Source of the DNA: Pseudoalteromonas undina
GTDB lineage: Bacteria > Pseudomonadota > Gammaproteobacteria > Enterobacterales > Alteromonadaceae
Direction: 5' to 3'
Assembly (NCBI RefSeq): GCF_000238275.3
Contig: NZ_AHCF03000002.1
Coordinates: 310,001-374,000, forward strand
DNA length: 64,000 nucleotides
Part shown: positions 4,793 through 61,251 of the stretch, piece by piece
Layout of the letters: every line of letters begins with the position of its first letter
Numbering within the stretch: position 1 is the stretch's first letter
The notes under the pieces: model-generated
The model's input: only the letters and a program-made list of their open reading frames with translations
The model's database searches: none
Told to the model about the DNA's origin: nothing
Position numbers and translations under genes: made by a program

Positions 4793-5149
4793 GTTAAAGA
4801 CCAGTTTTTAGTCTTCATCTGTCAGTTGTCAGCAAAAGATTAAGCCAAGTACGGTGTTTGGGTTAAACGTAGGCGGGGCTTTACGCCGCGCAGGTAGTTT
4901 GACATGTTGTGAAAGTGCGCGAGGTAAACTCTCACCTATAATATAAAAACTGGGCTTGCATAAGGCTCGGTGTTTTATTTTACTACCTGACCGCTGACCG
5001 CTGACCGCTGACCGCTGACCGCTGACCGCTGACCGCTGACCGCTGACCGCGAACTGATCTTTAAGATCTCGACTATTGAATATAGGATCTCAGCGCGTTT
5101 TCATGCTAGAATTTGCGCAATTTTTTTGTACTCGATAAGTAGCACTGTA
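4793..5149. other. Repeat-rich gap between rsmJ and trmJ
   Basis: There is no credible ORF. The gap holds a palindrome of the GCGGGG-CTTTA-CCGCG family at 4872-4890, then AGGTAAACTCTCACC-like remnants, then the pure heptamer array at 4987-5049. The last 100 bp should contain the trmJ promoter; no consensus -35/-10 pair stands out. Confidence 0.6.
4987..5049. repeat. Heptamer array, 9 x CTGACCG
   Basis: Nine perfect head-to-tail copies of CTGACCG (equivalently GCTGACC) make exactly 63 bp. No interruption was seen. Confidence 0.97.
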
Positions 5150-5875
5150 ATGATCTTAGATGATATCCGCATCGTTTTAGTTAATACCTCACATTCTGGC
5201 AATATTGGTTCTGCGGCACGCGCCATGAAAACCATGGGATTATCAAAGTTATACCTTGTAGATCCAGCCTGTGAAATAGATAGTCATGCCAGCGCACTGG
5301 CTGCAGGTGCTACAGATGTACTTGGTAATGCGGTTATTGTTGATACGGTTGCCGATGCCATTGCTGATTGTGCATTAACTATTGGTACTAGCGCTCGCTC
5401 GCGTACATTATCGTGGCCTATGGTTGAGCCGCGTGAATGTGGTGAAAAGCTTGTTGGCGAAGCTGTAAATGGCCCTGTAGCACTTGTATTTGGTCGTGAA
5501 AACAGTGGCTTAACAAACGAAGAATTACAACTGTGTAATTACCATGTATGTATTCCTGCTAACCCAGAATACAGCTCGCTAAATTTAGCGATGGCAGTAC
5601 AAACCTTATGTTATGAAACGCGTATGGCATTTTTAAATCAACAGCCTAAAGCGGAACAAGAAGAAGACGACACCCTATATCCATCGTCTAAACAAACAGA
5701 GCTGTTTTACGAACACCTTGAAGACACCTTGTTTAAAACAGGCTTCATCATTAAGCAGCACCCAGGCATGGTAATGACTAAGCTACGTCGCTTGTTTAAT
5801 CGTGCTCGCCCTGAAGATGCTGAAATGAACATATTACGAGGTATTCTTACCTCAATTAATAAGTCTATAAAATAG
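5150..5875 (+). CDS. trmJ: tRNA (cytidine/uridine-32 2'-O)-methyltransferase
   Basis: This SpoU/TrmH-family (SPOUT) protein has 241 residues; E. coli TrmJ has 246. The N-terminus [20 protein letters not shown] and the following [17 protein letters not shown] match TrmJ. The knotted SAM site appears as [17 protein letters not shown] (about 112-128) and [17 protein letters not shown] (about 137-153). It 2'-O-methylates nucleotide 32 in tRNA anticodon loops. The frame is open to a TTG at 5126, but the ATG at 5150 fits the family N-terminus. As in E. coli, it lies directly upstream of iscR. Confidence 0.94.
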
Positions 5876-5912
5876 CAATTAGTTATAAATAGCGCCCTTT
5901 ATTACTCCACTA

Positions 5913-5937
5913 ATACTTGACTAAATTACTCAGGTAA
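5913..5937 (+). promoter_or_regulatory. IscR type 1 box, copy 1
   Basis: The 25-nt site begins ATACTTGACTAAATTACT and ends CAGGTAA. It fits the published [2Fe-2S]-IscR type 1 consensus (ATASYYGACTRWWWYAGTCRRSTAT) except that the second half reads TACTC in place of YAGTC. Confidence 0.8.
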
Positions 5938-5951
5938 TTACAATAGACCCA

Positions 5952-5976
5952 ATACTTGACCAAAACAGTCGGGTAT
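5952..5976 (+). promoter_or_regulatory. IscR type 1 box, copy 2 (best match)
   Basis: The site ATACTTGACCAAAACAGTC followed by GGGTAT keeps both halves of the type 1 IscR consensus, with only minor deviations. It is the strongest of the three copies. Confidence 0.85.
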
Positions 5977-6019
5977 TACAAGTTTATCGGTTGCCGTTTG
6001 AGGCTAGCCAATCAGGATA

Positions 6020-6044
6020 ATACTTGACTAATCTACTCTGGTAA
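6020..6044 (+). promoter_or_regulatory. IscR type 1 box, copy 3, overlapping the isc promoter
   Basis: The site ATACTTGACTAATCTACT followed by CTGGTAA repeats copy 1 almost exactly. Its TTGACT (6024-6029) doubles as a -35, and TAAAAT (6046-6051) is a -10 at 16-bp spacing. IscR bound here should therefore block RNA polymerase. This explains negative autoregulation of the operon by holo-IscR, as known in E. coli. Confidence 0.82.
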
Positions 6045-6077
6045 TTAAAATTTGCACTCTTTTGTGCGGGGGGCGTT

Positions 6078-6569
6078 ATGAAGTTAACATCAAAAGGCAG
6101 ATATGCCGTTACAGCCATGCTGGATGTTGCACTACATGCAAATATAGGCCCTGTAGCGCTTGCAGATATTTCGCAGCGCCAAGAAATTTCTTTGTCTTAT
6201 CTTGAGCAGTTATTCGCCCGTTTACGTAAGAATGGGCTAGTGAGTTCTGTTCGAGGTCCTGGTGGGGGCTATTTACTAGGACGTGAGGCCGATGTAATTT
6301 CAGTTGGCGATGTTATCAATGCGGTAGATGAATCTGTTGATGCTACACGGTGTCAGCGAAGCAATACTGGTTGTCAAAGTGGCATGCGTTGTTTAACCCA
6401 TACATTGTGGTCAGACTTAAGCGCACGAATTGAAGAATTTTTAAATAATATTACCTTAGCTGAACTGGTTGAAAAGTCGGACGTTAAAGCGGTCGCTCTT
6501 CGCCAAGAAAACAGCGTTAATGATGCAATTAAGCAGTTGGAAAATATTCAAGTAAGCTGTCAACTTTAA
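6078..6569 (+). CDS. iscR: Fe-S cluster-responsive regulator IscR
   Basis: This 163-residue Rrf2-family regulator (E. coli 162) has an N-terminal winged helix-turn-helix ([43 protein letters not shown]). The [2Fe-2S] ligands are C92, C99, C105 and H108 in my count. The first Cys spacing has one residue more than in E. coli (C92/C98/C104/H107). It represses the isc operon when cluster-loaded. A GGGGGG tract precedes the ATG. It is the first gene of the operon, behind three IscR boxes. Confidence 0.96.
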
Positions 6570-6593
6570 GGTTGACCTGCAGCGGAGAGAGAA

Positions 6594-59808: not shown

Positions 59809-60666
59809 ATGTTAAATGAGGAGAATTCACAGAAAATTGGCACTCTTTACGTTGTTGCCACCCCAATCGGCAATTATGACGACTTAAGTCAGCGTGCAAT
59901 CGCGACATTATCGCAGGTTGACTTAATCGCGGCTGAAGACACTCGCCATACTGGTAAGCTACTTAGCCACTTTGGTATTAAGGCTAAAACCTTTGCGTTA
60001 CATGACCATAATGAAAAGCAAAAAGCGCAGCAAATTATCGACCAACTTAATCAAGGGTTAAATATTGCACTGGTCTCTGATGCAGGCACGCCGCTTATAA
60101 GCGACCCTGGTTATGCGGTGGTTAACTTATGTCGTGAGCAAGGCGCAAGTGTAACACCCGTACCTGGTGCATGTGCTGCTATTACAGCGGTATGTTGTTC
60201 TGGGTTACCTACTGATCGTTTTCAATTTATTGGCTTCACACCTGCCAAAAGTAAAGCGCGCCAAGACTTTTTTATAGATGCGGTTAACTCAAGTATTACC
60301 AGTATTATGTATGAAAGTACCCACCGTATTATGGCAAGCCTTGACGATTTAGAAGCAGCGCTAGGTAGTGAGCAGCAGGTGGTATTTGCCAAAGAGCTCA
60401 CTAAAACCTTTGAAACCTTTTTTAATGGCACAGTGAGTGAGTTAAAGCAGTTTTTAACTGACGATCCAACTAAACAACGCGGCGAAATAGTACTCATGCT
60501 GCCGGGTAAAGCTAAGGTAGTTGACGATATTCCGCCAGAAGCCCGTAAAATGTTAGCGTTACTTGAAAACGAAATGCCAATGAAAAAAGCGTGTGGTGTA
60601 GTAGCCGATTACTTCGGCATGAAGAAAAACGCGTTGTATAAAACAATTATTGAAGAAAAACAGTAA
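59809..60666 (+). CDS. rsmI: 16S rRNA (cytidine-1402 2'-O)-methyltransferase
   Basis: The 285-residue protein (E. coli 286) is of the tetrapyrrole methylase fold: GTLYVVATPIGNYDDLSQRA (about 11-30), AAEDTRHTGKLL, LVSDAGTPLISDPGY, VPGACAAITAVCCSGLPTDR and MYESTHRI. It 2'-O-methylates C1402 of 16S rRNA. The ATG has CAGGAGA upstream. It is divergent from lpoA and immediately upstream of rnpB. Confidence 0.97.
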   Translation: MLNEENSQKIGTLYVVATPIGNYDDLSQRAIATLSQVDLIAAEDTRHTGKLLSHFGIKAKTFALHDHNEKQKAQQIIDQLNQGLNIALVSDAGTPLISDPGYAVVNLCREQGASVTPVPGACAAITAVCCSGLPTDRFQFIGFTPAKSKARQDFFIDAVNSSITSIMYESTHRIMASLDDLEAALGSEQQVVFAKELTKTFETFFNGTVSELKQFLTDDPTKQRGEIVLMLPGKAKVVDDIPPEARKMLALLENEMPMKKACGVVADYFGMKKNALYKTIIEEKQ

Positions 60667-60696
60667 ATGTTTACTGCGTAGTGTTGTGCTCTCATG

Positions 60697-60702
60697 TATA
60701 CT
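60697..60702 (+). promoter_or_regulatory. -10 element of the rnpB promoter
   Basis: TATACT ends 7 nt before the first paired base of the RNase P RNA. No strong -35 is seen at 17 bp (CTGCGT). Confidence 0.6.
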
Positions 60703-60709
60703 GCGCGCC

Positions 60710-61072
60710 GAGTTAGCCAAGATAATCGCTGCCTGTGACGAAAATGATCAGGGGGAGGAAAGTCCGGGCTCCATAGGGCAGAGTGCCAGTTAACGGCTGG
60801 GGGGCGTGAGCCCACGACAAGTGCAGCAGAGAGAAGACCGCCAATCTTCGGATTGGTAAGGGTGAAAGGGTGCGGTAAGAGCGCACCGGGCCGCTAGTAA
60901 TAGTCGGTTGCAAGGTAAACTCCACTCGGAGCAAGACCAAATAGGGTTCCTTATGGCGTGGCCCACGTTGGAACCGGGTAGGTTGCTTGAGCCATAGAGC
61001 GATTTATGGCCTAGACGAATGATTATCACTTTCTTCGGAAAGGACAGAACCCGGCTTATATGGCTAACTCAC
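60710..61072 (+). ncRNA. rnpB: RNase P RNA (M1 RNA, bacterial class A)
   Basis: About 363 nt. The ends GAGTTAGCC and GGCTAACTC pair as helix P1. Hallmarks are GGGGGAGGAAAGTCCGGGCT (CR-I), CAGAGAGAAGACCGCC, GGTGAAAGGGTGCGGTAAGA (CR-II/III) and near the end AGGACAGAACCCGGCTTA. It is the catalytic RNA that matures tRNA 5' ends. It is shorter than the 377 nt of E. coli. Confidence 0.97.
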
Positions 61073-61081
61073 TCATTCAAT

Positions 61082-61116
61082 AAAAAAGCCCGCAGTTAAC
61101 GCTGCGGGCTTTTTTG
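61082..61116 (+). terminator. Intrinsic terminator of rnpB
   Basis: AAAAAAGCCCGCAG and CTGCGGGCTTTTTT enclose TTAACG, with a 14-bp stem and T run right after the RNA. Confidence 0.95.
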
Positions 61117-61190
61117 TGTTTGGAATAAGCTGTCAGGTTGCGGGCTTAAAACCTAAACTCGACGCGAGACTAACTATCGCCTTCAGGCAT

Positions 61191-61224
61191 AAAAAACCTT
61201 GTAATGTTAACCGCAAGGCTTTTA
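61191..61224 (-). terminator. Terminator of the second MscS gene (CCTTG module)
   Basis: On the minus strand, AAAAGCCTTGCGG-TTAACA-TTACAAGGTTTTTT is the third copy of the module seen at 47304 and 56074, here with a weaker stem. Confidence 0.75.
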
Positions 61225-61230
61225 AATTTC

Positions 61231-61251
61231 TCGAACCTCGAACCTCGAACC
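61231..61251. repeat. Heptamer array, 3 x TCGAACC
   Basis: Three perfect TCGAACC units sit 3 bp from the stop codon of the minus-strand channel gene. This is the shortest of the three same-heptamer arrays. Confidence 0.9.

Follow-up and report, generated by a model that had tools for sequence, protein, structure and literature searches.

Heptamer arrays of a Pseudoalteromonas genome as probable terminal arms of small S23 mobile elements

Why should one stretch of a bacterial chromosome carry tandem arrays in gap after gap, with units that differ from array to array and a period that is nearly always seven? The stretch is from Pseudoalteromonas undina and comprises 64,000 nucleotides (positions 310001–374000 of contig C2, NZ_AHCF03000002.1; hereafter the window) of a genome of 4.03 Mb in 4 contigs. 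The original prediction had listed twelve such arrays and proposed that a shared 7-nt mechanism makes them from different seeds. The shared cause is upheld by the present analysis; the different seeds are not, as the arrays tend to form inverted pairs, have a common AG core and are tied to genes of the S23/IVP family. We consider it likely that the arrays are the inward-facing terminal arms of small S23 mobile elements, and infer that an S23 pentamer may read one heptad per subunit.

All twelve listed arrays were present within a few bases of where they had been placed. A scan of the window for perfect arrays (periods 4–20, at least three copies) returned 13 of period 7, the array at 56114 being counted twice because it is split by a mismatch, and otherwise one array of period 10 and two short period-4 runs; 20 first-order Markov simulations of the window gave no period-7 array. 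In a wider sample of 1.044 Mb (the window plus 49 stretches of its own genome) there were 19 perfect period-7 arrays vs 2 at the other periods from 5 to 30 (period 5 and period 10), and a single second-order Markov simulation of this sample had no array above period 4. The proposed check on the period distribution thus came out in favor of an excess at 7, although the claim that the period never departs from 7 does not hold: a perfect 10-bp array, TAATAATCAG x6.7, lies at 32394–32460, at the 3′ end of the open reading frame (ORF) at 31210–32406, and is the sole perfect non-7 array above period 4 in the window. Since 13 of the 19 arrays in the sample fall within these 64 kb, the window is exceptional. 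Three degenerate, mixed heptad arrays (43567–43636, 47015–47075 and 55846–55890) had gone unlisted. Nor are the units strictly locus-specific, as had been supposed: TCGAACC occurs at three loci in the window and GGTTAAA at two (51496 and 55815, on opposite strands), and TCGAACC, TAGAACC, TGATAGC and CCTAAAA are also present elsewhere in the genome.

One element in the window is complete. Its 5′ heptad arm is the GGTTCAA array at 50949–51026 (forward strand), which reads inward as GTTCAAG; the array had been given as eleven copies, of which about 7 are perfect and the rest, including the last, are degenerate. The arm is followed by a gene for a 115-aa S23/IVP four-helix-bundle protein (51106–51453, forward strand; PF05635, TIGR02436) that scores 116.6 bits against PF05635 (cut-off 33.8), and then by the 3′ arm, (CCTTTAA)n at 51496–51535 on the reverse strand, which faces the 50949 arm and reads as GTTAAAG when inverted. 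The S23 gene sits between rpsI (50490–50879) and a Rieske gene (52012), with a petB-like gene at 52602, whose product matches P. fuliginea at 96%. The S23 fold resembles that of XCC0516 and of Avd from diversity-generating retroelements (DGRs).

The association of S23 genes with period 7 is general. PF05635 was matched in 21 of 60 Pseudoalteromonas genomes (20 over the family cut-off), in 77 of the 369 class genomes, and in 29 plasmid records, which are mostly cyanobacterial (chiefly Nostoc and Calothrix) and include Riemerella and Azospirillum. We studied 75 S23 loci, comprising 30 of the 42 listed genus matches, 29 new loci from the best class matches and 16 of the 29 plasmid records; flank statistics leave out three with truncated ORFs (L229, L230, L256), and the 72 full-length genes are mostly from Gammaproteobacteria and cyanobacterial plasmids. 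Flank identity at lags 7/14/21/28 was.418/.388/.365/.341 in 72 5′ flanks and.449/.420/.411/.373 in 70 3′ flanks (two short ones being dropped), vs.25–.30 at all the remaining lags between 2 and 30. No lag-7 peak was present in stretches 850–1000 bp off the S23 ORFs (.257,.256). By locus, a lag-7 array was detected in 45/72 5′ flanks and 42/72 3′ flanks, on both sides in 30 loci and on at least one side in 57. Arrays at lags 5, 6, 8–11 and 13 numbered 0–2, those at lag 15 numbered 4 and 2, and those at the harmonic lag 14 numbered 33 and 35. Lag-7 arrays were found beside 9 and 11 of 118 other ORFs of the S23 loci, and in 4 of 5000 random windows of the own genome. Within the genus, 25/30 S23 loci vs 5/30 sspB loci had a period-7 array within 1.5 kb. 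Among the 60 genomes, 15 had both AACCTNN arrays and S23, 5 had S23 only, 10 arrays only and 30 neither (Fisher p 3e-4, kinship ignored). S23 copies also cluster: 22 of 30 have another within 30 kb (11 genomes with at least two full-length copies). Some S23 genes of cyanobacterial plasmids lie inside CRISPR operons (L275, L278, L280), the order being cas6-S23-cas4 twice and cas10-S23-cmr3 once, the latter without heptads. Carriage by phages was rejected, one cyanobacterial S23 protein having been unmatched among 50,697 phage records.

Within an element, one arm is an inverted copy of the other. In 30 two-armed elements the arms shared.366 of their 5-mers in inverted orientation, vs.061±.023 (maximum.171) for permuted pairs, and the own arm was the best or tied-best match in 14. 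Arms often match only in part, as with GTTCAAG/GTTAAAG and CTATCAG/CCGTCAG. Read inward, 81 of 93 arms have an AG core, and orienting them in this way gives 3.17 bits vs 2.38±.05 for random orientation (non-redundant arm counts leave out L272 and L254, and one arm with an N was dropped from the AG-core set). Outside Pseudoalteromonas, 26/84 arms had exactly 5 phased AG/GG units, 12 had 4 and 4 had 6; control stretches reached five phased units rarely (4/140), and the median unit number in class and plasmid arms was 4.6. Units follow their S23 protein: across 60 loci, the share of heptads in common was.03–.06 below 60% S23 identity,.15 at 60–70%,.44 at 70–80% and.89 above 80% (Mantel r.416, 0/999). 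Inward pairing was also found from the arrays' side. Of 62 arrays, 20 whose AG/CT orientation was absent or ambiguous and 3 close to the end of a sequence were set aside. The remaining 39, some of them S23-bearing, came from the window, relatives, the genome sample and loci selected without regard to S23; in a phased AG test, a heptad partner of opposite orientation lay inward within 600 bp for 23 of the 39 and outward for 1, against a background of 1.1%.

Arms and ORF enter a site together. On a Trichormus plasmid (L279) and a Scytonema plasmid (L319) the element lies between two genes, and BLAST gives 100% identity for a second Trichormus record; in Nostoc linckia and Tolypothrix (L316, L317) the same site is empty, and according to the BLAST table four more records share the short empty-site length, identity being 98–99% throughout. 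The filled site reads AAAAAGTAAT-element-GTAATTAACAA and the empty one AAAAAGTAATTAACAA, the difference being a 423-bp element, both arms included, plus a 5-bp target duplication, GTAAT (98–99% identical flanks). In the Trichormus element the heptads start 3 bp from the left end and end about 10 bp from the right end, and by annotation it has an S23 gene only and no transposase gene. A Nostoc copy (contig C052, L318) retains the 5′ arm and has a truncated ORF. A single gap elsewhere holds full elements (L271, L272), an ORF-less inverted heptad pair (L320) or no array (L321). In Pseudoalteromonas, the cysD-cysN gap is 556 bp in G008 and 465–466 bp in G057 and G059, with two different S23 lineages, vs 41–86 bp and no S23 in G036, G030, G026 and G037; these seven loci gave a gap, out of eight.

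The most fitting reading of the window is a local cluster of S23 elements, most of them without an ORF, because the window has arm pairs that enclose no ORF, arrays with inward partners, and two units, CTGACCG and TGATAGC, that belong to S23 lineages of relatives (L225, L233–L235, L237, L239). One ORF-less element, in the gap behind sspB, has the 5′ arm (AGGTTAA)4 at 55815–55841 on the forward strand (inward partner score 18), extended by mixed RCGAGCN heptads at 55846–55890, and, by the partner test, the 3′ arm (TCGAACC)10 at 56114–56185 on the reverse strand; no ORF is enclosed. The gap at 20608–21089 likewise has both arms without an ORF, a degenerate 5′ arm (AAGGCTCGAGGTTTTAGGAACTAGGTTTTAG, 20639–20673, forward) and the 3′ arm (CCTAAAA)3 (20950–20971, reverse), and in the close relative G048 an S23 ORF lies between the corresponding arms. 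In the same gap, just upstream of wzz, is a (TGATAGC)9 array of the TCAG-type lineage (21008–21073, no strand assigned), whose unit flanks S23 in L233, L234 and L239. The (CTGACCG)9 array at 4987–5050 (reverse), also TCAG-type, has a unit that flanks S23 genes in L225, L235 and L237; its weak partner CTGTCAGTTGTCAG, near 4819–4833, scores 4.5, which is under the cut-off. The (TCGAACC)7 array at 47343–47393 (reverse) has a candidate 5′ partner in the mixed heptads at 47022–47068 (forward; score 7.0 in the partner test). No partner over the cut-off was found for (CGAAGCC)9 at 11879–11942 (reverse), which follows a terminator-like hairpin and has mixed heptads at 11807–11832, or for (TCGAACC)3 at 61230–61252 (reverse), downstream of rnpB. 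Two arrays fell outside the partner test: (GGTAACG)9 at 15929–15993 (forward), where AG gives no orientation, and (TAGAACC)5 at 23502–23538 (reverse), upstream of an epimerase gene, where AG is ambiguous. A mixed, ACGAGCT-like heptad array lies at 43567–43636 (forward).

Other features recur near the arrays. A terminator-like hairpin, AACCTTGCG-N-CGCAAGGTT, immediately precedes four of them (11838–11876, 47304–47342, 56075–56113 and 61191–61229) and also one in L126. The RNase P RNA and tRNA-His genes are at 60710–61074 and 15738–15813, with heptamer arrays just downstream of the former and near the latter. A dispersed palindromic repeat of about 100 bp (CTCTTTGTG ... CGCAAAGAG) has parts at 47107–47206, 55924–55972 and 20837–20885, and in the 60 Pseudoalteromonas genomes searched it is in places tandem at about 120-bp spacing. 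We considered a composite repeat of about 300 bp (47030–47345) as the carrier of the arrays and rejected it; 30 of 60 genomes match it, and its middle is a passenger because the matches rest mostly on that independent palindromic repeat. A further palindrome, GTAGCAGCGGGTTTACCCCGCG, stands beside some arrays at 11770, 47276 and 56046, and we take it to resemble repetitive extragenic palindromic (REP) sequences. An origin from REP and the associated RAYT genes was rejected, GTAGCAGCGGGTTTACCCCGCG having three genome matches (at most two mismatches), all in the window, in a search that did not extend to RAYT genes. The pattern AACCTNN x3 occurs at about 17 sites genome-wide, 7 of them in the window (sites grouped by hand). 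Its matches show a strand bias, 70 forward vs 8 reverse; in the close relative G045, among the matches listed, they are mostly forward 0.45–1.3 Mb from dnaA and reverse at two sites beyond 2.3 Mb. Expansion possibly depends on the direction of replication or of genes.

Comparison of the window with orthologous 80-kb regions of G045 and G048 showed arrays in many matching gaps, with related units and different copy numbers. GGTTCAA has 11 copies in the window, 6 in G045 and 92 in G048; TTTAACC has 5.7 in the window and 23.7 in G045, with TTTCACC at 8.3 in G048; and three copies of CCTAAAA in the window contrast with about 85–86 of GAACCTA in G048. Identical, fixed arrays derived from one ancestral element had been named as an outcome that would overturn the original prediction. 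An element family does account for the arrays, but these are neither identical nor fixed, because the GGTTCAA copies number 11, 6 and 92 in three close relatives. The gap behind sspB was readable in 16 of 30 loci of the genus; it is 55–72 bp without an array in 8 of these, 443–1378 bp and array-bearing in the three loci of the window clade, and 130–523 bp in L142, L143, L145, L146 and L158, with CCTAGAA x17 in L146 by Tandem Repeats Finder (TRF). The rpsI-petA gap has been struck more than once; in Pseudoalteromonas sp. XI10 (L014, ~8900) it has a different ORF-less heptad pair, CTGTCAG.. / TCTCGCA x9.

These observations suggest the following model. A full element is about 420–650 bp long, with a 5′ heptad arm, an S23/IVP ORF of about 110–130 aa and an inverted 3′ arm. 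It enters as a unit between genes, at the junctions of operons and in some cases within 23S rRNA, and the cleanest site shows a target duplication of 5 bp. ORF-less pairs, several window arrays included, are derived copies, either decayed or like miniature inverted-repeat transposable elements (MITEs). An S23 pentamer may bind each arm, one heptad per subunit, as does TRAP with its repeats. If so, the period would be set at 7 by the geometry of the ring, the contacted core would be AG with the remaining positions drifting along with the S23 lineage, and the basic arm would have five heptads. Pentamers may then pair the ends or protect them, with cutting and joining done by an enzyme other than S23, possibly the host's. 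Slippage would alter the length of an array after its birth, not its period.

Several observations weigh against this interpretation. The pentameric state comes from the homologue XCC0516, which is reported to be a pentamer (PMC4990558), and not from the S23 of the window. The own genome has one S23 gene vs a dozen or more arrays, and for 3 of the 9 window arrays tested no partner passed the cut-off. In the genus, 25 genomes have AACCTNN arrays, 10 of them without an S23 gene over the cut-off, and 20 genomes have S23, 5 of them without such an array. At the cut-off, 15 of 72 S23 loci have no lag-7 array on either side. L213, L227, L231, L266 and L280 have little or no heptad array, and the Azospirillum copy inside 23S rRNA (L285) and the Riemerella copy (L274) have arrays only by TRF, with scores of 37–52. 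(The L227 gene is flanked by an array of 15 bp, not 7 bp, GCGAGGGTAAAGTTA, in which AG recurs at alternating 7 and 8 nt.) As to the code, 12 of 93 arms are without AG; the 54 class and plasmid arms, taken by themselves, have a less settled core, because their best-fit matrix differs (A.82 - G.52, plus A.45 - G.75 three positions on); and the spike at five units is absent in Pseudoalteromonas arms (6/56). In direct orientation, too, arms share 5-mers slightly more often than under the null (.058 vs.017, maximum.061). In the partner test, orthologous arrays of the window, G045 and G048 were counted separately, a strict lag test gave an inward partner for only 8 of 42 arrays, and the phased test at steps 5 and 8 gave a weak inward/outward difference too. 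Finally, of the four sites compared for target duplication, only L279 is clean (exact GTAAT by eye, with an overlap of 8 in the mismatch-tolerant script). L281 has none by script, with TTCTA flanking the element by eye at about 90% flank identity; two of three comparisons at L270 give 3 bp (5 if a mismatch is allowed); and none was found at L283. At the rpsI gap the outgroup flanks diverge strongly from those of the window copy.

Replication slippage is a rival explanation for such arrays. The original prediction had held that random slippage should give mixed periods, which the literature contradicts: as cited in later papers, Mrazek 2007 reported heptamers as the most abundant long-unit class in most genomes surveyed and proposed a 7-nt polymerase contact length. 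A built-in preference of this kind, acting on chance seeds anywhere, agrees with that survey, with the period-7 excess in the own-genome sample and with the copy numbers that differ between sister genomes. It predicts neither S23 adjacency nor inverted pairing, neither an orientation-dependent AG core nor units that track the S23 lineage, and neither a spike at five units nor joint insertion of arrays and ORF, and we consider it very unlikely. Local slippage from chance seeds was rejected as the sole cause, given the adjacency, pairing, AG core and lineage tracking; location and unit are not independent of a gene family, as they would be in a plain slippage microsatellite. G-quadruplexes or regulatory motifs have been put forward for GGGNATC in Xanthomonas/Nostoc and for TAACTGA in Beggiatoaceae; here they seem hardly credible. 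Those arrays are mostly intergenic too, and the Xanthomonas ones have mostly four units and, per their authors, many convergent pairs (PMC4692102), yet most units here have no GGG (GTTCAAG, CTATCAG) while showing similar pairing and a close unit number, and S23 linkage would not be expected. Among the 12 listed window units none contains GGG or CCC, CGAAGCC and GGTAACG forming CCC or GGG across unit joins.

Two other explanations give the arms or the S23 protein a part to play. The arms might pair in RNA, with RNase III cutting the stem to remove the insert and the heptads being a by-product of complementarity. Own arms do pair better than those of other elements (mean -62.6 vs -46.2 kcal/mol; n=71, p 2e-9), and in 24 of the 71 cases the own arm outdid every other arm compared (at most 12); RNase III excision is reported for the Coxiella intervening sequence (PMC4990558), and both the Azospirillum copy within 23S rRNA and the insertions within operons fit such a role. 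However, arms could pair without any 7-nt unit and without a constant AG on each inward strand, and the frequent partial agreement of arms speaks against it. As an alternative to S23-heptad recognition it is unlikely, though the two roles may coexist. Alternatively, the elements might move via RNA with a reverse transcriptase in trans and S23 as an Avd-like cofactor, but RVT_1 was found in 14/20 S23-bearing vs 23/40 other Pseudoalteromonas genomes, indicating no association, and was not found in G045 and G057 despite their 3 and 4 S23 copies. Even allowing that reverse transcriptase may be dispensable after arrival, we regard this as quite improbable.

Extended to other bacteria, recognition of heptads by S23 becomes a plausible but tentative proposal, which we would not yet favor: S23 proteins may be sequence-reading rings (five NNNNNAG heptads per ring) that define widespread transposase-less elements, with most long bacterial heptamer arrays being their ends or remains and the 7-bp preference reflecting ring geometry rather than slippage. 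If true, the cyanobacterial, Xanthomonas and Beggiatoaceae arrays would all be ends or remains of S23 elements, which would join two separate puzzles, the 7-base unit of bacterial repeats and the role of the S23/IVP proteins of rRNA intervening sequences. The code is testable (five inward AG heptads, one pentamer), S23 partners are predicted for heptamer families already published, heptamer repeats that serve as typing markers may be ends of mobile elements, and, if S23 moves elements without a known transposase, this would be a new route of mobilization. A general S23-heptamer link was not found in the open-access literature, most subscription papers and all preprints being outside that search, so that priority is not assured.

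Comparison with known systems shows both likenesses and differences. Like insertion sequences and MITEs they have terminal inverted repeats, but the L279 element encodes no transposase. S23 is similar to the DGR protein Avd in fold and has weak profile similarity to it, scoring too low to pass the curated threshold of the Avd equivalog model; unlike DGRs, the element has no reverse transcriptase, and reverse transcriptase does not track S23 across genomes. The TRAP ring protein is an 11-mer that binds closely spaced NAG triplets in RNA, and it serves here as a model analogy only, each subunit of a ring reading an AG-containing repeat at fixed spacing, with no sequence relation claimed. Heptamer repeats themselves are already in print, in Xanthomonas (GGGAATC), Beggiatoaceae (TAACTGA) and Coxiella (GACAGAT), contrary to the view that no counterpart was described outside heterocystous cyanobacteria. 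The GGGNATC repeats of Xanthomonas and Nostoc are likewise mostly intergenic, with a 7-bp unit and mostly four units per array, and the convergent pairs number 70 in one genome and 75 in another (PMC4692102). They are explained there by G-quadruplexes, S23 going unmentioned in the cited passages, and the arrays here do not have a GGG in each unit; the S23 crystal structure 2gsc is of an X. campestris protein. The TAACTGA repeats of Beggiatoaceae, Cyanobacteria and Bacteroidetes have a single unit, for which a translational role is proposed, and some relatives have shorter, repeat-free gaps (PMC4679880). TCAGTTA, the reverse complement of TAACTGA, is the TRF unit directly beside the S23 gene in L243.

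A close likeness is to the intervening sequences (IVSs) of 23S rRNA in Coxiella and Leptospira, with which the S23p family and inverted ends are shared. The window copy has the PF05635 ORF and the inverted end repeats of an IVS and lies outside 23S rRNA, an Rfam scan having found no rRNA in the window; this element and others examined are in gene gaps, with 1 of 40 Rfam-scanned loci (of the 75) in rRNA, and ORF-less derivatives occur here, unlike in 23S IVSs. For IVSs, the cited passages of PMC4990558 describe neither a general heptad code nor target duplication. The one copy in rRNA, Azospirillum L285, lies in 23S rRNA like an IVS and has heptads by TRF, below our stricter cut-off. The Coxiella IVS is 428 nt long, compared with 423 bp for the L279 element, and carries two or three GACAGAT heptamers, depending on strain, in tandem before the S23 ORF (PMC4990558); rotated to ATGACAG, this unit has the form N5AG.

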